Source of the DNA: a virus
Virus record (IMG/VR): IMGVR_UViG_3300032087_003676
Span: 1-25,171 of that record
Direction: 5' to 3' (one strand)
DNA length: 25,171 nucleotides
The notes under the pieces were generated by a model. The model was not told the origin of the DNA and did not search any database. It saw nothing but the letters and a program-made list of their open reading frames with translations. The position numbers and the translations under genes are program-made. Positions 1 to 25,171 of this stretch are shown here, piece by piece; position 1 is the first letter of the stretch; every line of letters starts with the position of its first letter.

Positions 1-250
1 GGGGTGGCATGTTGATAATCAACCGCTTCAACTCACCTCGTGCCACACGTTCAAAGGCATTCGCCATATCTTTGTGGTGCCTGCCAGAAATAAAGCTAGG
101 CCACATGAGTTTGGTAAAGCTCAGGAAGTCATCCTTGGCGTTCTTTTTGTTCTCAGCATCTTCAAGCTCAGACAATAGGTCTAACAGCTCTGCCTGTTGC
201 TCTACAGGAAGCTGGGATATCTTATCCTTCATAGCAGCAAGTTTCTGCAT
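1..250 (-). CDS. terL: Terminase large subunit, N-terminal part (cut by window edge)
   Basis: Leftward gene starting with ATG at 250-248 and running out of the window; 83 codons are visible. The ribosome binding site AGGAG lies 5 bases before the start. The visible protein has a helical acidic lead-in (about residues 1-38), then FLSFTKLMWPSFISG, a HHKDMANAFERVARGE segment and finally RLIINMPP. That order is the typical N-terminus of phage terminase large subunits, where the next residues form the Walker A loop of the packaging ATPase; here the window ends just before it. The family motor translocates DNA into the prohead and cuts it with a C-terminal nuclease. The small subunit is about 1.5 kb away on the same strand, separated by oppositely oriented small genes, which is unusual because terS and terL are normally adjacent. 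Confidence 0.88.
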   Translation of the reverse strand, partial: MQKLAAMKDKISQLPVEQQAELLDLLSELEDAENKKNAKDDFLSFTKLMWPSFISGRHHKDMANAFERVARGELKRLIINMPP

Positions 251-390
251 GCTTTCTCCTCTTATGTGGCAGACAGACAAGTTTGGTGGGGAATGCCTGC
301 CTGCCTGAGATAGATCAGGGAGAGTCTCTATCCCATGCCGATGATATCAGTCTTACGCGCGCGCGTATATATAATATATATATAATAATA

Positions 391-447
391 TATATCGGTA
401 GACTACCGATATAGATATATCGTCTACCGTAACGTCTACCGATATAG
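391..447. promoter_or_regulatory. Repeat module A: palindrome plus GTCTACCG iterons
   Basis: The gap 251-522 between divergent terL and the 523 gene holds this module, preceded by GCGCGCGC (358-365) and an almost pure AT tract (366-395). Bases 391-413 form a perfect inverted repeat with 11-base arms around one central base (arm TATATCGGTAG). Two direct copies of CGTCTACCG follow at 421-429 and 433-441, the second continuing into ATATAG. The three CTACCG units are spaced about 21 and 12 bases apart. The same arrangement recurs at 13299-13353. The spacing suggests protein binding on one face of the helix; it could be an operator, activator site or replication/partition site. Confidence 0.7.
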
Positions 448-3531: not shown

Positions 3532-4035
3532 ATGCAATACCACGTCATCAAGAAACGCATGTCCCCCCACGTTCGTGCGATGCTCAACAGCCCAGAGGGT
3601 AGTTGGGAAAGTCACCCCCAAGCTCGTGCCTATGCTGACCTGAACTTTCTGCTTGGCAAGGAAGCGAAAGACCTTGAGCTTGCTGCGCTGCATGCCCTGA
3701 TCCACCGCACCTATGGACACAAGACCTCATACGAGATCGAACTGGAAGAGGGTGGCGATGGTGCCGAACAGATCAAGGAAAACCTTGAGAAGATTTACGT
3801 GTTCGAGAACGCGCCCTACCCCACTGAGCTAAACCAGATCGCTTGTCGTCATGGCGGCGGTAGCAGCCTGTCAGTGGGTGATCTGGTGTTTGTCGATGCA
3901 CCCAAGCCCATGATCTTCATGTGTGCTTCTGTTGGCTACGTTCAGTTGTCCAACAAATTTGTCGATGCCTTCAAGGATATCGGCCCTGCAATCATTGTTG
4001 GCGAACACTGCGTCAACGACACTTGGGCTGCGTAA
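3532..4035 (+). CDS. Hypothetical early protein
   Basis: 167-residue protein, ATG 3532 after AAAAGGAG. The N-terminal half is helical (ARAYADLNFLLGKEAKDLEL, AALHALIHRTYG), followed by an acidic stretch (EIELEEGGDGAEQIKENLEK) and a beta-rich C-terminal half with GDLVFVDAPKPMIFMCASVG and a Gly/Ile-rich end. The His-containing helix and hydrophobic strands suggest a soluble globular protein. No catalytic motif or known family is recognised. It is flanked by two near-identical GC hairpins, suggesting that each gene here is an independently stabilised unit. Confidence 0.7.
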   Translation: MQYHVIKKRMSPHVRAMLNSPEGSWESHPQARAYADLNFLLGKEAKDLELAALHALIHRTYGHKTSYEIELEEGGDGAEQIKENLEKIYVFENAPYPTELNQIACRHGGGSSLSVGDLVFVDAPKPMIFMCASVGYVQLSNKFVDAFKDIGPAIIVGEHCVNDTWAA

Positions 4036-4046
4036 GCCCCTTCACT

Positions 4047-4064
4047 GTGGCCCTGTCGGGCCGC
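4047..4064 (+). other. Intergenic GC hairpin, copy 2
   Basis: GTGGCCC-TGTC-GGGCCGC, 7-bp stem, 11 bases after the stop at 4035. It has the same stem sequence as copy 1 but a different loop, and no U-tract. Confidence 0.6.
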
Positions 4065-4102
4065 ACCTTCCCAGTAACAGTCAGCCAGAAAAGGATGAAC
4101 AG

Positions 4103-4798
4103 ATGACTGCTAAAGAATTTATGGTTTCAGATGCTTCGATCAATGTTGTTTACAAAGCGGAGCAAAACATTGCTGACCTCAAGGGTCAGAACCGCGACAA
4201 CAACGAGGCGGCTAACGCCCACAAGATGGGTGCCTACGGCGAGGTGATCGCCTCTATCGCCCACGTCAAACTGGTCAAGGGCAACCTACCTCGTGCCGTG
4301 TCAAAGAAGCTGCGTTCTGCGCTGCTTGAAGAGGCGGGTCTGAAAGAGGCCACCGTCAAGCGGTACGTCGAGAACTCTGTCGGTGCCGTGCGTTTGATCA
4401 AGGATCAGATCGGCGACATCCCAAGCCAGTACACTGCGGACGCTATCGTTCGTGATCTGGCTGCGATGGAGATCGACAGTGAGAACAAACTTGCCAAGAT
4501 GGTCAAGGGTGAGACTGCCAAGTCGAAAGCCCAACGCCTTGCAGAGCAAGTTGTCGGCAAGTTCTCTACCAAGAAGGATGAGAACGGCAAGCAGGTTCAA
4601 GGCGATGTCTTCAAGGATGGCCTTGATGATGACGAGCTTGACGAGTTCCAGAACGTCATGCGTGAGTTGATGGCTGCGCGGAAAGCGTACCGTGACACTG
4701 AGGCGGCTAAGGCCGCTGCCGCTGAGGCTGAGAACGAGAACGACACTGTCGATGCTGCAGTGGTTGCGATGCTCGACGAGCTTGGCGTTGCGTCTTAA
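4103..4798 (+). CDS. Alpha-helical hypothetical protein
   Basis: 231-residue protein. ATG 4103 is preferred because AAGGA lies 8 bases before it; the open frame extends upstream into the hairpin but without a good start. It is almost wholly helical, with a charged, Ala-rich and acidic C-terminus (AAKAAAAEAENEND near residues 202-215). The middle part (KLRSALLEEAGLKEATVKRY, ENSVGAVRLIKDQIGDIPSQ) could form a small DNA-binding or adaptor helical domain, but I cannot assign a family. Strong codon use and a good ribosome binding site suggest high expression. It is followed by hairpin copy 3 and palindrome site 4. Confidence 0.75.
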   Translation: MTAKEFMVSDASINVVYKAEQNIADLKGQNRDNNEAANAHKMGAYGEVIASIAHVKLVKGNLPRAVSKKLRSALLEEAGLKEATVKRYVENSVGAVRLIKDQIGDIPSQYTADAIVRDLAAMEIDSENKLAKMVKGETAKSKAQRLAEQVVGKFSTKKDENGKQVQGDVFKDGLDDDELDEFQNVMRELMAARKAYRDTEAAKAAAAEAENENDTVDAAVVAMLDELGVAS

Positions 4799-11459: not shown

Positions 11460-13212
11460 CTACCTCAGAGTATGGCACTGGTGCATCAAGTATCGGATCA
11501 GGTACATGCTTCCTGTACGTTGATGTAGGGACATCGAACTCAAGTTCTGTGTCACCCTGCTTGCCAACCCATGAGAAGCGGCACTTCCAGATATGAATTT
11601 CAGAAACCCTAGAGTGTGCCGGATCAGGTCTGTGGACTGTTAGACCTACGTCAGCTTTCGCAAACCAAGCTGCACTACCGGATATGTCGTAGCCTTTTGG
11701 AGCGGGAACTTTTCCTGACTGATCTCGCATCATCTTTGTCGGATGGGCTACGAACCAAAGGTGTATGCCGTGTGCCTGAGCAAAGACACGCAGCCGTGTA
11801 AGCATGTCAGATATCCATTCGGTTTCACTGACGTTGGCATCCCTCTGGATGTAGTTGTATGGGTCTACGATTGCACCGCGTACACCGTGCCGCATCACTG
11901 CAACCTTCAAGCGTTCGATGATGCTATCGACTGAAGACATCGAACCGTCTGCCTGATACAGAAAAGAAAAGTGCGATTGAACAAATTCCTTTCCCTTGCG
12001 CAGCTCGTCTGGCGTTATCCGATCCATTGCACCTTCAAAGAAAGGCTTGCGGATATACTTGCTGATGAGCTTGGCAATATGAAGACGCGGCTCGTTCTCG
12101 AAAGAACAGATCGCAAACTTCCAACGCTTCTCTTGTGCCATGTTCACCATGATCTGATCTATGAACTCAGACTTACCAGATGATGGGTGACCAGTGACCA
12201 CAGTAAGCTGACCAGTGACAACGGTATACAAGTCATCGACATTGTCGTAGCCAGTACTCTCGCCACGCCCCATGCCCTTCTCGTAGATGTCATCGATCTG
12301 ATCATAGAAATGTTCTGCATCGTATAGACCTGCGACAGGCCACGGCTTGGCACCAACAACGACATCATCAACCTTGTCTTTGCCATGCTTCAGAAGGACA
12401 TCGTTGCAATCCTTGCAGTCCTCTGGGTACTCAATCTTGAAGCAGCGATCCTTTCCGATACGACGAGCGATCTCTTCCGCTGTTGCTTGACCCGCAGGGT
12501 CTGCATCCATAGCGATGATGATACGACTAGCGGCATCGATCTTCTTCTTTGCTGCCCATAAGAACTTGAATTTATTATCTTCTTTCGGATCGATGTTACC
12601 ATCGACAACTTTCATGACCGCGCCATTTGGTATTGATACAACGCTTTCGTAACCTGTCTCCATGAATGCAAGCGCATCCATTTCACCCTCGCAAATGATG
12701 AGATCATCATCACGCTGCACGTTCTTCAGATTGAATAAACTCTGTGGTGCGCCATTGCAAATGAACGCCTTGCTATCGATTGATCGTATCTTCTGGGCGT
12801 ACTCTTGACCCTCATGATTTTGATATGGGAATACGATGCTTGGTGTCTCATGGCCTATCGATTGGAACCATGTGACGGATGACTGAAGGTTTGCTTTCTC
12901 TGCTGTTTCTGCACTGATGCCACGGCTATTCAGCCATGCCAGTGCCGCCTCAGTAAGTGAGGTCTTATCTATCTTTTTGGCTACGGACATTGTTTCCACT
13001 CTGTTTATTTTTTCTACTCGCTCTGCCAACGGAACAATCCCCTGCTGATCACAGTGCCAACACTGAAACAGTATCTTGTCTTGTTCTATTTTTAGAGAGA
13101 GCGTTCTATCGGTTTTGTTTTTGCGGCTTGGACTACAGCTTGGGCATTTTATTTTATGTTGACCTTGCCCTAATCTGTACGCCTCGCCACGAACTTGTTG
13201 TTCGATTTGCAC
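11437..13212 (-). CDS. Bifunctional primase-helicase (T7 gp4 / TWINKLE-type)
   Basis: 591-residue leftward protein. Start is GTG 13212-13210, with AGGAG 7 bases upstream. Order of domains: zinc-binding (C23PSC26 and C51WHC54); toprim primase core with EGEMDA (residues 175-180) and DAD (236-238); linker; RecA-like DnaB-type helicase core with Walker A GHPSSGKS (341-348) and Walker B AIVDPYN (447-453), then WFVAHPTKMMRD (486-497) and GSAAWFAKADVGLTV. It unwinds DNA and synthesises primers at the phage fork. No DNA polymerase lies in this window; it must be elsewhere in the genome or supplied by the host. A good promoter and repeat module B lie upstream, and RusA precedes it on the same strand. 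Confidence 0.9.
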   Translation of the reverse strand: MQIEQQVRGEAYRLGQGQHKIKCPSCSPSRKNKTDRTLSLKIEQDKILFQCWHCDQQGIVPLAERVEKINRVETMSVAKKIDKTSLTEAALAWLNSRGISAETAEKANLQSSVTWFQSIGHETPSIVFPYQNHEGQEYAQKIRSIDSKAFICNGAPQSLFNLKNVQRDDDLIICEGEMDALAFMETGYESVVSIPNGAVMKVVDGNIDPKEDNKFKFLWAAKKKIDAASRIIIAMDADPAGQATAEEIARRIGKDRCFKIEYPEDCKDCNDVLLKHGKDKVDDVVVGAKPWPVAGLYDAEHFYDQIDDIYEKGMGRGESTGYDNVDDLYTVVTGQLTVVTGHPSSGKSEFIDQIMVNMAQEKRWKFAICSFENEPRLHIAKLISKYIRKPFFEGAMDRITPDELRKGKEFVQSHFSFLYQADGSMSSVDSIIERLKVAVMRHGVRGAIVDPYNYIQRDANVSETEWISDMLTRLRVFAQAHGIHLWFVAHPTKMMRDQSGKVPAPKGYDISGSAAWFAKADVGLTVHRPDPAHSRVSEIHIWKCRFSWVGKQGDTELEFDVPTSTYRKHVPDPILDAPVPYSEVDDDDWPL

Positions 13213-13237: not shown

Positions 13238-13267
13238 ATCATAGCGAAGACGGATACGAGTAGTCAA
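13238..13267 (-). promoter_or_regulatory. Sigma70-type promoter for the primase-helicase
   Basis: Leftward: TTGACT (13267-13262), 18-base spacer, TATGAT (13243-13238), about 25 bases before the GTG start. Repeat module B and its AT tract lie immediately upstream, so this module may control it. Confidence 0.65.
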
Positions 13268-13298
13268 CTTGCCAAATTTTTCCCGCCTAATATATAAT

Positions 13299-13353
13299 AT
13301 ATATACTTAGTCTACCGATATATAATATCGTCTACCGAACGTCTTCCGATATA
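13299..13353. promoter_or_regulatory. Repeat module B: GTCTACCG iterons
   Basis: AT-rich tract (13288-13307), then AGTCTACCG (13309-13317), CGTCTACCG (13329-13337) and CGTCTTCCG (13340-13348), each flanked by ATATA. Unit spacing of 20 and 11 bases closely matches module A (21 and 12). The RusA gene ends inside it: the RusA stop codon is in unit 2 and the last seven codons overlie unit 3. Confidence 0.7.
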
Positions 13354-13733
13354 AGATAGTCTGGTATTTTTTTTATATCACACGAACGAACACGAATAAC
13401 CGAACGTGGATTTTCTTTATCCAGACCCCAGTAAATAAACTTCTGCTTCACCTGCCTGTCGTTCTTATAGACACGGCACTGCATGCAATCTAGGATCAAA
13501 CTCTCATCCAGATCGGGGCGGCGTGATGCGTAATAGATCATCATCTCAACGACAACATCCTCAGTCGTTGGCACTTCCAAGACAGGGCATTGCTGCTCAA
13601 AGGTTTTCACGTAGTCCCTAGCCTTCTGGGATTTGATGAGGGCAGGTCGGCCCTTTATCAGCACCATCTTACGTGAGTTCGCCTTGGATGCGGGTTCACC
13701 ATGCACCGTAAATGTAACGTCAAAGTCTCCCAT
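13332..13733 (-). CDS. rusA: RusA-family Holliday junction resolvase
   Basis: 133-residue leftward protein; ribosome binding site AGGGGAAG before ATG 13733. The N-terminus has VHGEPASKANSR, the conserved substrate-loop sequence of the family. The core RRPDLDESLILDCMQ and VYKNDRQV carries the metal-binding aspartates (D74, D76 and D92, with D82 nearby). RusA enzymes are small dimers (about 120 residues) that cut four-way DNA junctions during phage recombination and before packaging. The C-terminus extends past the usual end into repeat module B. Confidence 0.9.
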   Translation of the reverse strand: MGDFDVTFTVHGEPASKANSRKMVLIKGRPALIKSQKARDYVKTFEQQCPVLEVPTTEDVVVEMMIYYASRRPDLDESLILDCMQCRVYKNDRQVKQKFIYWGLDKENPRSVIRVRSCDIKKIPDYLISEDVR

Positions 13734-13784: not shown

Positions 13785-13805
13785 TACAGACCAGTGGAGA
13801 AAACA

Positions 13806-14696
13806 ATGAAAATAACGAACAAGCATAACTTACCAGATGCTTTCTTAAACTTTGCGCGGGACGACAAGTACTCGAAGGGCAAAGCGGATATCAGCGTCAC
13901 CAGTCTTATCGACTCACCGCGAGTGCGGCTGATGAAAGACCTGTATTCAAGCGAAGCAGAGACAGACGTGGTCGATATGATCTGGCCCCTGTTTGGTACG
14001 GCAGTACACCATATCCTTGAGAGTGCCGATGATCCTGCGAACGTGCAGGTAGAAGAACGCCTGTACGCAGACGTGGCAGGTTGGACTTTGTCTGGTGCGC
14101 TAGACCACCAAGAGGTTTTACCTGATGGCACCGTGCAGATCACGGACTACAAGGTCACGTCTGCTTGGTCTGTAATCCTTGGCAAGAAGGAATGGGAGCG
14201 TCAGCAAAACTGCTACGCTTGGTTAGTTGAGAACTCTTTAGCAGGTGCCAACCGCCAGAACAAAGTGAGCAAGTTGCGCATCTGTGCCATCCTCAGAGAT
14301 TGGCAACGCCGCAAGGCACAGTTCGATAGCGAGTACCCACAGTCACCAGTTGTGATTGTTGACCTTCCCCTGTGGAGTGCAGAGGAGCGTGAGGATTATA
14401 TCTACGAGCGTATCGATGCGCATCAATCAGCACAGATGGACTACGATCTCTATGATCAGTTCATTCTTTGCTCGAAAGAAGATCAGTGGGCAAAGCCAGA
14501 TCAGTATGCCGTGAAAGAAGCGGGGAAGAAGAGAGCATTGAAGCTGTGGGATACAGCGGAGCAAGCTCAAGAGCATGTCGATAGCAGCGATAAGAAGCTA
14601 GAGATTGAGTATCGTCAGGGCGAGAAGACCCGATGCGAAGGTAACTACTGCGGAGTGGCAGAGTTTTGTGAACAATACAATGGATGGAGAAAGTAA
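13806..14696 (+). CDS. PD-(D/E)XK nuclease (Cas4/RecB-like exonuclease)
   Basis: 296 residues from ATG 13806 (GTGGAGAAA upstream; GTG 13794 in frame is less likely). Active-site pattern: GTAVHHILES (64-73), SGALDHQ (96-102), the D-x-K core ITDYKVTSAWS (112-122) and RQQNCYAWL (132-140), as in the Cas4/RecB/AddB nuclease superfamily. One Cys in FILCSKEDQW and three near the end (CEGNYCGVAEFC) give a four-cysteine set that could hold an Fe-S cluster, as in Cas4 and AddB. It probably resects DNA for the Sak3 annealing protein encoded next, in the manner of lambda exo and beta. The next gene starts at TAATG on its stop. Confidence 0.85.
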   Translation: MKITNKHNLPDAFLNFARDDKYSKGKADISVTSLIDSPRVRLMKDLYSSEAETDVVDMIWPLFGTAVHHILESADDPANVQVEERLYADVAGWTLSGALDHQEVLPDGTVQITDYKVTSAWSVILGKKEWERQQNCYAWLVENSLAGANRQNKVSKLRICAILRDWQRRKAQFDSEYPQSPVVIVDLPLWSAEEREDYIYERIDAHQSAQMDYDLYDQFILCSKEDQWAKPDQYAVKEAGKKRALKLWDTAEQAQEHVDSSDKKLEIEYRQGEKTRCEGNYCGVAEFCEQYNGWRK

Positions 14697-15424
14697 TGTC
14701 CGTATGGGAAACACTATCTAAGATCGATGTAAACGATCACACGGAAAAGAAGAATGGCCTAACGTATCTATCGTGGGCATGGGCTTGGGGCGTTCTGAAG
14801 AACCACTACCCTGAAGCTGTATTCAAGAAACATATACAGCCTAACGGAATGCCATACATCAAAGATGAAAATGGGTATGCATACGTTGAGGTCACAGTTC
14901 TTGTCGAAGGAATTAGTGCAACTGAACTTTTTCCTGTTCTTGATTACCGCAACAAGGCGATCCAGAACCCAGATGCATTCGCAATCAACACCGCATTTCA
15001 GCGTGGACTAGCCAAGGCAATCAGCTACCACGGACTAGGTCACTACATCTATGCAGGTGAAGACCTGCCTCAGAGCGACGGAGAGGGGCGGCAGAGTGAG
15101 GTAAAGGAAAAACCTAAGCCCACCCCCACGAATAAGGAAAAGGATACTGAGCCGCCGAACGAGAAGCCTCTTGGCTACATGGTCAACTCAGGTGCCTATA
15201 AGCCAGAGGATCGTGAGCCTCGTGCTGTCTATGATTGGGACAGTTGGGCAGATGTTGCATGTGCTTGGGTGGATGCGATCAGGTCAATGGACACATTGAA
15301 GAAGTTCTACAACGCGAACAAGGAACTGTTCGAGTTAGCCAAAGAGCAGAACAGTACAGCCCATCAATCGGTGGCTGACAAAATCAAATCTAAGAAAGAA
15401 GAGTTATCAAAGGAGAAGAAGTAA
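14696..15424 (+). CDS. Single-strand annealing protein, Sak3/DUF1071
   Basis: 242 residues from ATG 14696, which overlaps the preceding stop (TAATG) with TGGAGAAAG upstream; an in-frame ATG at 14684 is possible. The core VWETLSKIDVNDHTEKKNG, LTYLSWAWAWGVLK and LAKAISYHGLGHYIYAGEDL matches DUF1071, classed as the Sak3 family of phage annealing proteins. It anneals complementary strands during phage recombination. The C-terminal part (after about residue 125) is a charged disordered linker followed by a small helical domain (DSWADVACAWVDAIR) that may bind a partner. It is coupled to the SSB-like gene by another TAATG junction. Confidence 0.88.
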   Translation: MSVWETLSKIDVNDHTEKKNGLTYLSWAWAWGVLKNHYPEAVFKKHIQPNGMPYIKDENGYAYVEVTVLVEGISATELFPVLDYRNKAIQNPDAFAINTAFQRGLAKAISYHGLGHYIYAGEDLPQSDGEGRQSEVKEKPKPTPTNKEKDTEPPNEKPLGYMVNSGAYKPEDREPRAVYDWDSWADVACAWVDAIRSMDTLKKFYNANKELFELAKEQNSTAHQSVADKIKSKKEELSKEKK

Positions 15425-15738
15425 TGGCTCAATATCCCGCATCAGGCATCCTGTTTCAGAACGACAGGAAGCAGAACGAACGTCAGCCAGACTACACTGG
15501 CAACCTTGAAGTAGATCGTGAGGTAGTGACTGACTTATGGAATCAAATGCAAGAAGGGGTGGAACACCCAAAGGCGAACCTAGTCGGATGGAGAAAGACA
15601 TCCAAGAATGGCAAGCCATTTCTATCGTTGCGCAGCGACTTGTTGAGAGAGCGCAGGAGCAGCGACAACTATCAAGCACCTGCGGGGCATCAGAATAACA
15701 AACAGTCTAACGACATGGATGATGAGATACCGTTTTAA
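15424..15738 (+). CDS. Single-stranded DNA-binding-like protein
   Basis: 104-residue protein, coupled start (ATG 15424 on the preceding TAA). Strand-rich core (GILFQNDRKQNERQPDYTGN, WRKTSKNGKPFLSLR) followed by a disordered Asn/Gln/Ser linker and an acidic tip ending DMDDEIPF. That ending closely resembles the DDDIPF tail by which SSB proteins recruit recombination and replication partners. No full OB-fold motif can be confirmed by eye, so SSB-like is an inference from core, tail and position in an exo-SSAP-SSB order. Confidence 0.65.
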   Translation: MAQYPASGILFQNDRKQNERQPDYTGNLEVDREVVTDLWNQMQEGVEHPKANLVGWRKTSKNGKPFLSLRSDLLRERRSSDNYQAPAGHQNNKQSNDMDDEIPF

Positions 15739-16575: not shown

Positions 16576-16875
16576 ATGCTCATTCCGAAACATAAGAACA
16601 TTCGGGATGAGAAGTATCTGAATACTTTGCGGGGGACACCCTGCTTAGTGTGCAGACGTGGCGCAGAGGCTCATCACTTACAGCATGTTGGGGAACGTGG
16701 TGTAGGTATGAGGTCGGGAGATAACTGGGCTGTACCTCTGTGTCACGACTGCCATATGCAACTTCACCGATTTGGTGACGAGCGTACATGGTGGGATTTA
16801 GAAGGAGTTGATCCAATAGAGTGGGCCAAGAGAAACTGGGATAGATATAATGGCAAAGACACACCTAGTAGTTAA
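16576..16875 (+). CDS. HNH-type nuclease, DUF968/Ref-like
   Basis: 99-residue protein with C23LVC26, EAHHLQH (31-37), a G-V-G-x-R turn, PLCHDCHMQLH (54-64) and GDERTWW followed by a DPIEWA segment. This is the pattern of DUF968/Ref-type HNH proteins, zinc-stabilised His-metal nucleases. Ref from phage P1 is a RecA-dependent DNA nuclease; this short protein keeps only the core. ATG 16576 is 3 bases after the ParB-like stop, with no strong ribosome binding site, so it is probably translated by coupling. It overlaps the next gene by 26 bases. Confidence 0.8.
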   Translation: MLIPKHKNIRDEKYLNTLRGTPCLVCRRGAEAHHLQHVGERGVGMRSGDNWAVPLCHDCHMQLHRFGDERTWWDLEGVDPIEWAKRNWDRYNGKDTPSS

Positions 16876-18359: not shown

Positions 18360-21300
18360 TTATCGATAGTCCTTCATCATCATGTTGCCACGAGCGTATA
18401 GCATCTGCTTCTGCTCATCCAACCTATCCAGTAGCAACTGACGCTGACTATCAGGAAGGTTTACATTATCACGGATGGCGTTCTGCTGCCGTGATATTTT
18501 TTTGATGGCATTGTTGATGGCTTTGATGCGGGGCAGTAGTGCGATCTCTTCAGAGTACTTCTCTCTGGCTCTCATGAACCTTGCACGGTCACCTGCTTCT
18601 TGTGCTGCCTTGATTTCCTGACCTACGTTCAAGATGCGATCACGCTTCTCAACGAACAGACCAATGTTTTCACGTTCAGATACGCTGCCGATAACCTTAC
18701 GAACGAACGGTATCTCTCGTGATAGGTCTTCACTAAACCCATCAGTGTAGATACGAGCAGGTGCTTCTGCTGTACGCTGTACGAACCGCCCGATACCACC
18801 AGTCAGATATTCAAACCAGTAGTCCATGATCTCTGGGTTCCAATCTACGAAGCCAGACATCTCGCTAGTGCCGCCTGTCAAGGAGTTCAAGTTATCAGTA
18901 ACCCAACGTGCTGACGGGCTGACGCTGTTAAAGTAGCGTTGGCTATCAGGCGATTGATCCCCCGGATACTGCTGCTTATATATCGGCACTCCCGCGTAGT
19001 TTTCGTTGCGCATGATCTCAATGAATGGGTCAGCAACTGTAGGCGCAACAAAGTTTGCCATGTTCTCAGTGCCACCGATTGGGTTCAACGCATCAACCGC
19101 AGTCATGAAGATTGAGTTGGCACCCTCTGATGCAGAGTACTCACCGCGAAGTGTACGGTTAAACGCACGTCCCGCGTTGACCGCCATGTTTAGACCATAC
19201 GGTAGAGGTATGGCTAGGTAAGAGCGTTCACCCATACCAAAGGTTGGAAGGATTAGGTTATGCTCAAGGATGTAGTCAGGTATCTTGTCGTAGATTTTGA
19301 TCTCATCATCATCCTCTTCAGACAACATAGCGTTAAGAGCATCCTGCATGACACCAGCGACAATCAGTCCACCCCATAACTTTCGAACTTTTGGCGATCT
19401 TAGGAACGCATTGAAAAGTGCAAATGAACCTTGGATAGATGCATTGTAGAACAAGTAGTAAGAGTTCATGAGAGTTTTCATCTCACCACCCTTACCAAAA
19501 TTCACGGTCACATTACGTGCAGCTTGTGCGGCTCTCTCGTTGGAGAACCCCTTGTCCTTCAGTCCCTTGTATACAGCAACACGTACAGCGTTCTCAGCCA
19601 CAGTGTTATAGTCTTCTAAGAACTTGAGTAGTGACTTTGTCTTCTCGCCTACGAAGCTGTTCTTCATCTTGTTGAACTTGCCACGCACACCATCTTCAGC
19701 AATATCACCTAGCAAGTTACTGATGTTTGCCATCTGATCAGCGACACTGTTCATAGGGTTGGCAGAGTTCTGACCACCATCACGGACGAAGTCAGCATAT
19801 ATCTTTGCCCACTCACTATCTGTATCACCGTTGCGAATGGCTCTCTTGATGCCGCCAAATGCCTTTCCGTAATCCTTGGCGATGCTCTTCACCATGCCAT
19901 CAGCATCAAACTGCTGCACGTTAATACCTGCTGTCTGAATATCGCGGACGATGTTGGTGATAAAGAACTCAGGGTTATATGAGGTGTTGATGTTTGATAG
20001 ATATCTATTCAACTTACCCAAGGCACGGTTGATTGTATCCAGTGAGCTTGGGCCTGTTCCATCTACACCTTTCAGTGCATTAGCTAGGCGTACATCACTT
20101 AGCTCAACGAAGACATCCTTCCCATTTTCTTTTGCAACGAAGATATTCGGGTCTTGGCCTGCCATCATGTCAGGTATTTCTCTAACCTTTCCAGATGAAT
20201 CCAAGACACGGCGTGTTGGCATGCGATCTAGAATGCGACCATATCCACGAGTTTTGTCTGGGTTTGCTCGAAGCAATCCAATGAATGCCTGACCAACCTT
20301 GTTGCGCTCACCACGAACCACAGAGTTCTGGTTCTGATTGATCACTGTTGCAAGAATATCTGTGGCATAGTCAAAGCGGCCCAGCGCACGACGATCTTCT
20401 CTGCCGCGCACACCAAACGGCGCACCGCCTGCAGGACGAGTGTAATCCATCTCATCTTCAAGCATGTCCACCTTGCCACGCAGTGGGACATAGGCATTGA
20501 AGTTCTTATCAGTGCGCATGTCGTCTGGGATTAAGCCATAGTTTCTGCGAGTTTCGTTTGTATTACCAACGATGCTGCGAACAGACTGCTGAACCTCACG
20601 CAATGCAGCGATGCTTGGGCCATCCAATGTGGCGACCCATCCTAAGATTGCATCTGCCTCTGCGTCAGACATACCTGAACCAGATGTATTGTCTGGGTCT
20701 CGTTGTCTGATGAATGCGTTACGTTCCTTAGCGTGTGTCGCATAGAGTACAGCGTCAACCACCGCGAGCTTCTTGCTTGGATAGCTATCAAGAGCCTTCT
20801 TAACGAAGCCATCCCCTGTCTCTGATGTTCTATCAGACAGAGCTTTTAGTTGATCGATCTTACCTTGAGCAATGTTAACGCCTTTAACTGCGTTCACTGC
20901 ATCTTTGTAGATTGTATTCTCACGACTATCGATCTCTGCTCCAACACGACCATGATACAGTTCTTCCTGTAGATAAGCGTCGAACGCATCAGTGATAGTA
21001 GCCCCCGCCTTCTGCATTTCCTGATAAAAACGACCCACTGAAATCATATCGTCTTGGAAGTTGTTAATAATTTTGTCTGCTGCTCTTTGCGCTTTTTCTT
21101 CTGGCACAAAGAATTTCAAACCCTTTGCCAGGAAGTCAGAGGTTCTAGCATATTCTAAATCGTATTGCTTTTCGCCTATCTGTTCTGGAAGTCTGCTCAT
21201 CAAGCGAGATTGACGAACAGGCGCAGTCTTACGTGCCTTCTTCTCTAGGATCGGGAAGAATGTCTTTACATAGAATACATCCTTAGCAGGTGCATTTGGT

Positions 21301-24300
21301 AGATCACGACCCGACTGCAATACAAGGCGCATGGGTGGCGCTTTGAACGCTAGGTTATTGCGCCACTCAAGAACGATACCACCCTGACTTGGATAAGAAA
21401 TCACAGACTCTCCGTCGTCATATCCCTGATCTTGCCAGCGACGAAGGAGATCAAAGATGGCATTCTCTACACGTTTATACTTAGAGTTTTCTACAAGCTC
21501 TTTGTCATGGTTGCGTTGCTGAATATGGAAAAGACCCTGACCAACTTCCACACCATTCTCGTATGTTTTGTGAGAACCTCTAGGCAAAACTATAGGACGC
21601 AGCTTGCCCGTTGTGTCGTCCCTAAAGTACCCATAGACTGGATTAGGAGAGCCATCAGCCATGTTAACTGGTGCGCGTAATGGCATGAGTGCCTGAGCAG
21701 GGATGAGGCGAGAGAACCGTTGAGGTGGTAGCTCTGGATCAACTTCTGCTCCCGCAAGATCTGCTTCTGTTTGCTGTAGCTGTTCGGTTGTTAGCTGTTC
21801 CTGTGGGGCCATAGACCCATCAAGAAGTGTTAGCTCTCTTGGGGCGAAGAAGTTACCCTCTTCTGGGCCTCGTTGTATTCTATCAATTTGTCTACCAATT
21901 TCTGCATCTCTGTCGAGTTGAGATTTGACAGTATTGATTCTTCCTCGTTCTGCATCGGGGAGTGTGGCTTCGATTTTGTCATCGCTTACACCTTTGTTTT
22001 TAAGGATGGCTATTGCACCATCTGCATAATCATTGTCATCACCACGACCTTTGCGCACACCACCAGCTTCAAAGATGCGCTTCTCTGCGTACCACATGAG
22101 GGCTTGGAAGTCTGCGTTGGTTAGATCTACACCAATCTGGTTGCTTTGACGCAGTATTTCTCTAGCACGATTAGCAGCAGCCCTCATGGCTGAACGCTCA
22201 CGGGCATTACGTGGATCTTCCTGAAGCTGAGGTTTTATTTTACCCGCTAAATTTTTAGCAGCTAATGCTAAGTCTGTGGATTTAGGACGTGCAGCTTTAG
22301 CAAGCTCCTTAACTTTTTCTGCGTCACGCCCAGTGACTGTGCCGTTTGATGTGACAAGAAAATTATATTGATCAGCAAGATCATCAAGCTTGTCATTGAA
22401 TGCCTTGTTGTAGAAATTCTTGTCCCAAACTTTCTGTACCTCTGGGGCAATAAGTTCAATATCACTTTTCTCTATAGTAGTAATTCCCAAAGCTTCGACA
22501 GTATCCACCAAAAGCTTTTGATCCATCTCTGTCAGACTATCTGGATTTGATATTAGGTTCCAAAGCTTTTCTTTGTTTTCTTGTACAAGCTCTTCACGAT
22601 AATCAACAATCGGGTTGCCAGTAATACGATTAACAAAGCGCATCCACCAGCGATCCATTGTTAGCGGATCAAAGTTGCCACGAAGGTTTTGATAGAAACC
22701 ATTTCCAATCTTAGGTCCAATTACATAGGCAACGCCAACGATCTCATCAGCAAGTTCTTTACCATCGATACTAAAAGGTAGATCTTTAATTCTATCAACG
22801 CCGAAGACAGACATCATTAAGTTGCCTAGATCACCCTTGCGCATCTGCCTTGTGAGAAGCTCATTGATTTGATTTGAGTCATACCCACGATCAGTGAGCA
22901 TGTTCCAAAACTCCCATGCCTTAATCATGGATTTGCCTTGCGCCCCAGAAGCTGAGAGCGGGAACTTACCGTCTTGGTTGTTTTTCCATGCGTCATACTG
23001 GCGAGATGCCAGTAGGTAGTTGTCAATTACAGACAAGCCGTTTGAGGTAACTGCTGTTGCATAGTCAAATGCATGCTCAGACGCTGGATCATACATTGAA
23101 TTCTCTGTGCCATCAGGACGCAGTGGTGATACCTCTGGGTACACAGGGAACAGAATTTGTTTTGCCAGCTTCAGCTTGGCATCATACCAACCAATCGCAT
23201 CGCTACTGGACAGAAGCGCAGCCTCTGCTTCTGCAGCCATGATGCGAGCGACCTCTTCGCGGTCTTGCTCTGAGTTGACGATGTCATATGTACGTGCGCC
23301 GCGAAGCTCAAGAAGCTTGTTGGCAAAGCTTACAAGGGTTTCAGAACCCTGCTTGTTTTTAAACTTGGGTTGTCCAGTGTTCGGGTCCAAATAATCCAGA
23401 ACACTAGCAGCACGTTGCTCAGGAGAGAGGGGTAAGGTTAGACGTGATTGTCTAAAGCCCTCTACTCCTCTAGTAAGCTGTTTTCTTTGGCTGGTGTTAC
23501 GGTTATTCCTTGCTTCCGCAAAGCGGCGACCAACCTCTGCAAGGTTTCTTTGGTATCCGATTGCGGTGTCACCTCTGTAAGCACCACTCTCTTGGAGTTG
23601 TCTGATTCCTTCATTGGTCCTGATCTCCTCAAAGTTATTCAGATCAAAGATTGCCAGTTGATCTGCAGCCTCAGCGATGTACAGCGCCTCTTCTGCAGTT
23701 GGCAGTATCAAAGTGTTGTCTAAGAAATATTGCTGAGAGTCTGTGTCGAACCAACCACCAAGGTAAACTGGCTTATTGACAGCCCTCGAAATATCCTTAT
23801 TATCCTCAATATAACCTAATAGTACCTCCTCTGGCAAGGTCTCTCCGACAATTATTTCGGCTTCTTTGAGGGGGGCGACAACGAAACCACCAGACGCAGG
23901 TTCCATAGAGACAGGATCAATAGTAAATCCATCAGGATTATTTCTGATAAAGTCTTGTAAACCTGATACACTAGGGGAGCGAGATAGCCTTGAGAACTTA
24001 ACTTGCTGTTCAACAGGCAAATCTGTAACATAGTCATCGGAGGTAGATAAGATGGCAGAACCTTTTGCACTCATAGAAGATGGCTCTTCACGGGCGCTTA
24101 TATTCAAGGCTGATGGATCTACATCAGTGCGTACTTCTGAAGGCGTTGTAATGCCAGCCTCTGCCGTTGCGGCAGAAGAGATCCCAACACCAGATGATCT
24201 ACGTGCATTCCGCGCAGCCTCAAGCAGTGAACTCTCTGCTCTTCTCCAAGATGCTTCTGCATCCTGACGTGTAGTGTTCATTCGATCTAGCGCAGCTTGG

Positions 24301-25171
24301 AAAGCCTCATCATAGTTTCTATAACTACGAGCGATGGCAGCAAAGTAAGCATCACGCTGCGCTGACAATTCCTCTTGTGTCTTGTTGCGCCATTCCTCAA
24401 AGATCAAATGACCACGAGCTTTCTTTTCAACTTCAAGCTCTCTCAGCGGCAGATACCATTCGACAAGCTGCCCATTCGGCATGCGTAAATCAAACGCAAT
24501 AATACGCCAGCCCCATTCCTTTGGCTCAAACAACTTGTTGGTGTCTATCTTGACCAGAGATATCCCATCAGCAAGTAACTCATTGAAAATTGCAGGAACC
24601 GCACGGAAGTCATCAATCACTGTCTTAAAGCGATAACTATCACGGATGTGGGAAACATCATGCCAAGGTTTCTTAGCCAGTATTGATGGGCGACGAGCTT
24701 TCTGCGTAACCTTTGACAGGTCTTTGGCGTTGTCGCCTGACTTAGTGCCGTACCTTTCATCAATCCGTCTGATCAATTGCTTGACCAGTGGGCGGTTCTG
24801 ATTTGTCATGCGCTGTATTTCAGCGCGGATTTGATCATTCGGTGCCGCAACATTCAATGGCATTCTAATGTTTTGTTCGGGTGTTGTTTCTTCTTCTGTT
24901 GCCGCTAGTCGTGACTGACGCGAAGACGCTGGTTCTGTCTGTTCTTGTGCAGCAATACCACGTTCACGCTGCCCAATATTTCCAACAACAATATCATCGA
25001 AGATGGATTGCACATCCGTAAAGCCATTAGCTTTCGCGCCGCCAATAATAGCTTTGAAGAAGTTTTTAATCTTATTAAACAAGCTTACTGGCTTGCCCTT
25101 CATACTCAATCGACCAGCGTTATAATCACGGAACATTTCTGCAACGGCTTCTTCAGCCTGTATTTCTGGGT
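18360..25171 (-). CDS. Giant polyvalent protein, C-terminal 2,269 codons (N-terminus outside window)
   Basis: The frame is open to the window edge, so the true start lies outside; residue numbers below count from an internal Met at 25136. Residues 1-60: AEEAVAEMF..., IFDDIVVGNIGQRE, a linker seen in phage polyvalent proteins. Residues about 105-250: RelA/SpoT-like (DVSHIRDSYRFKTVIDDF; NGQLVEWYLPLRELE; RGHLIFEEWR). About 400-510: GFTIDP..., LGGWFDTDSQQYFLD, LAIFDL, an unnamed conserved module. About 1165-1300: GLFHIQQRN, RVENAIFDLL and FYVKTFFPI, BECR-RNase-like. About 1700-2130: LPD38-like, with YNPEFFITNIVRDIQTAGIN and a hydrophobic segment near 1917-1938. The C-terminus is coiled coil. Five [RK][QF]SRL motifs (73, 380, 562, 1140, 1308) separate the modules. 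Such proteins are thought to be packaged in virions and delivered with DNA. No stop or frameshift is seen. Confidence 0.8.
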   Translation of the reverse strand, partial: PEIQAEEAVAEMFRDYNAGRLSMKGKPVSLFNKIKNFFKAIIGGAKANGFTDVQSIFDDIVVGNIGQRERGIAAQEQTEPASSRQSRLAATEEETTPEQNIRMPLNVAAPNDQIRAEIQRMTNQNRPLVKQLIRRIDERYGTKSGDNAKDLSKVTQKARRPSILAKKPWHDVSHIRDSYRFKTVIDDFRAVPAIFNELLADGISLVKIDTNKLFEPKEWGWRIIAFDLRMPNGQLVEWYLPLRELEVEKKARGHLIFEEWRNKTQEELSAQRDAYFAAIARSYRNYDEAFQAALDRMNTTRQDAEASWRRAESSLLEAARNARRSSGVGISSAATAEAGITTPSEVRTDVDPSALNISAREEPSSMSAKGSAILSTSDDYVTDLPVEQQVKFSRLSRSPSVSGLQDFIRNNPDGFTIDPVSMEPASGGFVVAPLKEAEIIVGETLPEEVLLGYIEDNKDISRAVNKPVYLGGWFDTDSQQYFLDNTLILPTAEEALYIAEAADQLAIFDLNNFEEIRTNEGIRQLQESGAYRGDTAIGYQRNLAEVGRRFAEARNNRNTSQRKQLTRGVEGFRQSRLTLPLSPEQRAASVLDYLDPNTGQPKFKNKQGSETLVSFANKLLELRGARTYDIVNSEQDREEVARIMAAEAEAALLSSSDAIGWYDAKLKLAKQILFPVYPEVSPLRPDGTENSMYDPASEHAFDYATAVTSNGLSVIDNYLLASRQYDAWKNNQDGKFPLSASGAQGKSMIKAWEFWNMLTDRGYDSNQINELLTRQMRKGDLGNLMMSVFGVDRIKDLPFSIDGKELADEIVGVAYVIGPKIGNGFYQNLRGNFDPLTMDRWWMRFVNRITGNPIVDYREELVQENKEKLWNLISNPDSLTEMDQKLLVDTVEALGITTIEKSDIELIAPEVQKVWDKNFYNKAFNDKLDDLADQYNFLVTSNGTVTGRDAEKVKELAKAARPKSTDLALAAKNLAGKIKPQLQEDPRNARERSAMRAAANRAREILRQSNQIGVDLTNADFQALMWYAEKRIFEAGGVRKGRGDDNDYADGAIAILKNKGVSDDKIEATLPDAERGRINTVKSQLDRDAEIGRQIDRIQRGPEEGNFFAPRELTLLDGSMAPQEQLTTEQLQQTEADLAGAEVDPELPPQRFSRLIPAQALMPLRAPVNMADGSPNPVYGYFRDDTTGKLRPIVLPRGSHKTYENGVEVGQGLFHIQQRNHDKELVENSKYKRVENAIFDLLRRWQDQGYDDGESVISYPSQGGIVLEWRNNLAFKAPPMRLVLQSGRDLPNAPAKDVFYVKTFFPILEKKARKTAPVRQSRLMSRLPEQIGEKQYDLEYARTSDFLAKGLKFFVPEEKAQRAADKIINNFQDDMISVGRFYQEMQKAGATITDAFDAYLQEELYHGRVGAEIDSRENTIYKDAVNAVKGVNIAQGKIDQLKALSDRTSETGDGFVKKALDSYPSKKLAVVDAVLYATHAKERNAFIRQRDPDNTSGSGMSDAEADAILGWVATLDGPSIAALREVQQSVRSIVGNTNETRRNYGLIPDDMRTDKNFNAYVPLRGKVDMLEDEMDYTRPAGGAPFGVRGREDRRALGRFDYATDILATVINQNQNSVVRGERNKVGQAFIGLLRANPDKTRGYGRILDRMPTRRVLDSSGKVREIPDMMAGQDPNIFVAKENGKDVFVELSDVRLANALKGVDGTGPSSLDTINRALGKLNRYLSNINTSYNPEFFITNIVRDIQTAGINVQQFDADGMVKSIAKDYGKAFGGIKRAIRNGDTDSEWAKIYADFVRDGGQNSANPMNSVADQMANISNLLGDIAEDGVRGKFNKMKNSFVGEKTKSLLKFLEDYNTVAENAVRVAVYKGLKDKGFSNERAAQAARNVTVNFGKGGEMKTLMNSYYLFYNASIQGSFALFNAFLRSPKVRKLWGGLIVAGVMQDALNAMLSEEDDDEIKIYDKIPDYILEHNLILPTFGMGERSYLAIPLPYGLNMAVNAGRAFNRTLRGEYSASEGANSIFMTAVDALNPIGGTENMANFVAPTVADPFIEIMRNENYAGVPIYKQQYPGDQSPDSQRYFNSVSPSARWVTDNLNSLTGGTSEMSGFVDWNPEIMDYWFEYLTGGIGRFVQRTAEAPARIYTDGFSEDLSREIPFVRKVIGSVSERENIGLFVEKRDRILNVGQEIKAAQEAGDRARFMRAREKYSEEIALLPRIKAINNAIKKISRQQNAIRDNVNLPDSQRQLLLDRLDEQKQMLYARGNMMMKDYR

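Follow-up and report, generated by a model that had tools for sequence, protein, structure and literature searches.

Bacillus phage SPP1 carries two replication origins 12-13 kb apart, made up of direct repeats and an AT-rich unwinding element, one of them lying within the replication genes and the other in the late region (PMC6316719, PMC3485210). G38P binds both origins and theta replication proceeds from oriL, while a block at oriR has been proposed to trigger the switch to concatemers together with a resolvase, an exonuclease and an annealing protein, all of which, as well as an SSB, are encoded by SPP1 (PMC6316719, PMC3485210). In the literature we found no descriptions of such sites in marine phages.

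Satellite phage P4 has two separated sites as well, ori1/crr, which share short repeats and are bound by the alpha primase-helicase, a protein with an origin-binding domain of its own. To our knowledge, the replication origins of most uncultured phages are not known. Here we describe a pair of distant sites, A and B, in a clade of such phages and ask how well they can be read as sites of replication initiation.

The stretch of DNA analysed (25 171 nt, called the window throughout) is by its gene content a 25-kb fragment of a tailed phage. It encodes terS and terL, a MoxR/VWA pair, a TOPRIM/DnaB-type primase-helicase, RusA, an exonuclease, a Sak-like annealing protein, an SSB-like protein and an ORF of 2258 aa. 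A DNA similarity search returned no named phages with DNA similar to the window. The best named matches of terL are ~52-60% identical and belong to 023Pt_psg01, DSL-LC04 and the Pelagibacter phages HTVC027P and HTVC023P, all of which carry a DNA polymerase and a different replication module; for the primase, the best named matches are found in Synechococcus and Planktothrix phages at 35% identity. Judged from its named relatives alone, the clade would be marine. The gene order of the window is kept in metagenomic relatives with lengths of up to 62 kb. In one of these, G004, the MoxR gene is divided between the two contig ends, as a circularly permuted map would give, and from terL the late genes extend leftward over ~40 kb. 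The late operon ends in a very large ORF (window 18360-25136), which measures 2258 aa when counted from the first ATG and 3009 aa in G004. The MoxR-type ATPase and its DUF2201 metallopeptidase/VWA protein (6263-8673) are kept across the clade, and Planktothrix phage Pag-Yong1 shows an ATPase and a VWA protein in the same order. The genes of the window next to the two sites are as follows:

2-250, minus strand: 5' part of terL; the ORF runs past the window edge
11437-13212, minus strand: TOPRIM/DnaB-type primase-helicase (ORF and domain scans)
13332-13733, minus strand: RusA-like Holliday junction resolvase (ORF and domain scans)
13794-15738, plus strand: exonuclease, Sak-like annealing protein and SSB-like genes, adjoining site B

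Site A lies upstream of terL and site B upstream of the primase-helicase gene, both of them leftward genes; the two sites have the same orientation, with a TA tract on the left of each. In module A the unit CTACCG occurs at 403, 424 and 436 on the plus strand with spacings of 21 and 12, and an additional inverted copy (396-401) forms together with the first direct box a perfect 21-bp palindrome, ATATCGGTAGACTACCGATAT, at 392-412. Module B has CTACCG at 13312 and 13332, followed with one mismatch by CTTCCG at 13343, so that the spacings are 20 and 11.

356-365: (CG)5, flanking site A towards terL, read from the sequence; several relatives have a similar stretch
366-395: alternating TA tract, the candidate unwinding element of site A (rank 1 least stable 60-bp window)
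392-412: 21-bp palindrome (inverted plus first direct box), read from the sequence; absent from relatives L200 and L231
403-408, plus strand: box A1, CTACCG, inside AGACTACCGATAT
424-429, plus strand: box A2, CTACCG
436-441, plus strand: box A3, CTACCG, inside CGTCTACCGATAT
13238-13267, minus strand: sigma70-like promoter of the primase-helicase gene, TTGACT-18-TATGAT; similar sequence at related loci
13288-13307: TA tract, the candidate unwinding element of site B (rank 2 least stable window)
13312-13317, plus strand: box B1, CTACCG
13332-13337, plus strand: box B2, CTACCG, overlapping the RusA stop codon
13343-13348, plus strand: box B3, CTTCCG, a variant unit

The initial annotation had seen three CTACCG units in each module, which is exact for A and holds in B for two units, the third being the variant. 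Its other structural observations, namely an AT tract beside both modules, a common orientation, near-equal spacing, the extra perfect palindrome in A and a position of both modules upstream of leftward units, all agree with the sequence and the gene map. We considered the palindrome as the functional core of site A or as a terminator and rejected both, as it is not conserved: in L200 and L231 the three-unit array at A is present and the palindrome is missing. The repeats of B are flanked only by RusA and the primase-helicase gene, and in the window the final RusA codons and the stop fall within B. In the relative L023, however, RusA stops short of the array, yet the array remains; B is therefore not maintained for coding, and we rejected the view that it is kept merely as RusA coding sequence.

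Two conserved hairpins are found between site A and the start of terL, in the terL leader (window 268-334, minus strand). Among 12 relatives, compensatory changes were observed at 14 of 20 pairs and 93% of the cells were paired, a support that was reached in 0 of 500 shuffles; no Rfam match was found for these hairpins. Hairpin 1 carries the loop CTCCC, complementary in sequence to the ribosome-binding region of terL, which suggests translational control or a packaging-site structure.

Chance is excluded as the source of the match between A and B. When A was compared with the rest of the window, the local score was 66 at B and 22 at the next best place. The maximum score was 27 in 100 dinucleotide shuffles of the whole window and 34 in 2000 shuffles of B's own neighbourhood.

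Duplex stability was calculated with a nearest-neighbour model in 60-bp windows and ranked over each whole contig. In all 16 contigs with both positions, the two lowest stabilities (ranks 1 and 2) were those of A and B; some of these sites were first spotted by their AT content, while their places were set by gene position (upstream of terL and of the primase gene). Within the clade, long alternating TA tracts occur at A and B only. Four phages have terL in common with the clade but carry a DNA polymerase and a different replication module; no long TA tracts were found in them, and no extreme unstable pair stood out in these four or in the more distant G035 and G036. GC skew was rejected as origin evidence, as it tracks gene direction and transcription and the G004 minimum at A is not independent of gene direction; skew methods fail where skew follows transcription, as in this clade.

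The initial annotation had named as counterevidence that close relatives of the same gene order might lack both modules. This is not the case: G001, G004 and G005 have both of them, and in the close relatives generally they occupy the same places. Within this close group conservation is higher in the modules than in the flanking DNA (0.96 against 0.81-0.83 for B and 0.92 against 0.71-0.79 for A). Across the clade the distance between A and B is about 10.7-13.6 kb. More distant lineages lack the GTCTACCG boxes, but a TA-rich tract and a motif are still present at both places. The motif varies between lineages and usually agrees between A and B within a genome. At both sites G010 has ACGTCTTCCGACTTATA..ACATAACGTCTTCCG, G013, G014 and G033 have a CTCTCTC..GAGAGAG palindrome, G034 has GACTACCTAT boxes, and G011, G012 and G016 have a TA-only core, which in this lineage is long and identical between A and B. 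G021 carries an identical AGTTCATATGAACT adjoining both sites, the sole such palindrome in its contig. Box spacings of 11-12, 20-21 and 30-33 bp stay near whole helical turns though the sequence changes. Phased direct repeats with a predicted AT-rich unwinding element, the iteron-type arrangement, are present in the box lineages; clear direct repeats are missing from the palindromic and TA-only lineages.

The agreement between the sites was evaluated in 16 related contigs holding both positions, which represent about nine lineages and, as contigs within a lineage are related, an effective sample of ~9. When the nine A sites were combined with the nine B sites, the summed score of the true pairing was reached by this pairing alone among all 362 880, and the mean A-B score was 70 within genomes versus 39 across genomes; in a seven-lineage version the true pairing was likewise 1 of 5040. 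Not every contig follows the rule: in G015 the common motif is inverted and weak, in G022 the A-B match is weak, and the mosaic contig G009, which keeps both positions, combines a CTC-type A with a GTCTACC-type B. The A side of G009 is 99.98% identical to a second contig, L251, over 4.2 kb, and G009 is probably a natural recombinant and not a one-off chimera, although both contigs are metagenome assemblies. From its mismatch it follows that the matched pair is a rule and not an absolute requirement. Upstream of terL, L256 and L258 have near-alike leaders with a site-A motif of CGGAAGACG in the one and a CTCTCTCT palindrome in the other, which on sequence comparison is a motif swap inside one backbone.

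A match within genomes could also arise by recombination between the sites, either as concerted evolution (e.g. through Sak and the exonuclease) or because they are site-specific recombination sites, and would then need no selection by a shared protein. Phage annealing proteins are able to recombine short, diverged repeats, the long identical core of the TA-only lineage would fit such an exchange, and region A has been exchanged between lineages. However, the likeness is centred on the boxes and the TA tract, the boxes are spaced differently at the two sites of one genome (21/12 at A, 20/11 at B), as they would not be in a recent copy, and the modules are conserved in their own right, so that we regard this explanation as very improbable.

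We favour, with somewhat better than even confidence, the reading that A and B are paired replication-initiation sites, that is, sites of initiator binding and unwinding comparable to SPP1 oriL and oriR. This reading best accounts for phased boxes that lie beside the least stable DNA, once at the primase-helicase gene and once where the late operon begins, and the two least stable places per contig, the near-helical box spacing and the oriL/oriR-like layout all point in this direction. The initial annotation had left the choice between sites of one regulator and replication or partition sites; a shared trans-acting recognition is supported, replication sites are favoured, and regulation is still a rival.

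Indeed, the chief rival is a shared transcription regulator, with A and B as its operator or activator sites, the TA tract as an UP-like or bent element, and the late operon (from terL) and the primase under common control. Both sites lie directly upstream of leftward genes with the TA tract proximal and the boxes distal, B is located ~20 bp above a good sigma70-like -35, and in G004 the ~40-kb late operon runs leftward from A, all as a regulator would have it. On the other hand, exactly two sites per genome, both of them stability minima, would be unusual for operators, a search for a sigma70-like promoter at A found none, and G001, G005 and G006, which carry the same motif, gave no match to the HTH protein encoded at 8683-9288. 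A different, dispersed palindrome moreover resembles a general operator. Taken together, we consider a shared regulator rather unlikely, though deserving of attention.

This dispersed palindrome, AGTTC-N4-GAACT, occurs exactly at 467, 4838, 7333, 10012 and 18346 and with one mismatch at 1703, 2397 and 14915 of the window (8 sites versus 0.9 expected), and most relatives have 2-9 sites. It resembles an operator or a promoter element such as a phage regulon would have.

The pair might also organise the phage chromosome, as an array for partition, looping or the anchoring of packaging. One factor recognising two like arrays could bridge them, and A is situated beside terL and near terS; among the proteins scanned, a subset of the genes, no ParA/ParB-type family was found, however, and partition sites require no unwinding element. 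We judge this reading to be improbable, and both it and concerted evolution are less likely than the regulator.

If A and B are initiation sites, a DNA-binding protein, most likely phage-encoded, would bind the helically phased boxes at both of them and destabilise the adjoining TA tract, where the primase-helicase could load and recruit the host polymerase. The early (theta) origin would be site B, whose neighbours are the primase-helicase and recombination genes. Site A, heading the late operon, would serve as a second origin or, by analogy with the proposal for SPP1 oriR, as a fork-blocking site that aids the switch to concatemers for packaging. It is conceivable, and we put it forward tentatively, that the clade uses two origins which are recognised by an as yet unrecognised family of initiators, and that the target of this family switches from lineage to lineage, between phased GTCTACCG-like boxes, a CTC/GAG palindrome and a TA-only core, at both sites alike.

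Two proteins of the window are candidates for the binding protein:

4103-4798, plus strand: conserved 231-aa protein, present in nearly all lineages; candidate binding protein
10040-10795, plus strand: conserved, fast-evolving 251-aa protein; weaker candidate binding protein

Their predicted models are of good confidence (mean pLDDT 80 for the 231-aa and 86 for the 251-aa protein), and neither model has a structure match in the PDB; a scan of bacterial genomes found nothing for the 251-aa protein. The HTH protein mentioned above (HTH_3) was rejected as the reader, as it has no match in genomes that carry the same motif. A stand-alone DnaA C-terminal (DNA-binding) domain occurs within a 106-aa phage protein in G021 (16668-16859), where it lies downstream of the 251-aa homologue, and in G020 (3880-4071). 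As it was found only in these two, we rejected the DnaA C-terminal domain as a general reader. Alternatively, a host protein may read the sites, in which case the motif would have changed as the phages changed hosts.

In every contig examined, a test on sequence only, combining the two least stable sites with matched boxes, marks the same two places. If our reading is true, a marine clade whose replication module differs from that of SPP1 shares its two-origin plan, an unrecognised initiator is predicted, and the lineages offer a natural series of matched site pairs for following joint change of an initiator and its target.

By primase, the best named relatives are Planktothrix phage Pag-Yong1 and Synechococcus phage MinM2, the latter compared by protein matches only. 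Pag-Yong1 resembles the window in terL (47% identical), an ATPase in the MoxR position, a VWA protein, the primase-helicase (primase 35%) and the exonuclease; unlike this clade, it has no TA tracts and no matched pair of very unstable sites. With P4 the clade shares two separated repeat sites and a primase-helicase gene, but in contrast to P4 alpha the 591-aa protein of the window shows TOPRIM and DnaB-like domains only in the domain scan. As a positive control we applied the same kind of scan to the SPP1 relative 000TH010, where the best partner of the replisome-organizer gene is one late intergenic site (score 59, next 32). Its origin-like repeats are in the same orientation, as in A and B; the late site at ~5.3 kb is the least stable window (rank 1) and the organizer-gene site has rank 12, whereas here both sites are the most unstable of the genome.

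SPP1 itself differs in its box sequences, which are unrelated, and in having a helicase, a separate loader and the host primase in place of the fused primase-helicase. The G38P-type initiator domain (Phage_rep_org_N, PF09681) was found in none of 15 genomes, several of these being incomplete contigs. As this domain was not found and binding is a prediction, we describe A and B as sites that would work like the SPP1 pair and do not file them as a member of it. The likeness lies in the plan: two distant sites per genome with short repeats in common, each beside an AT-rich segment (weak in G015 and G022, mismatched in G009), with B in the replication genes (primase-helicase/RusA), A in the late region (terL), and RusA, exonuclease, Sak and SSB-like genes beside B.
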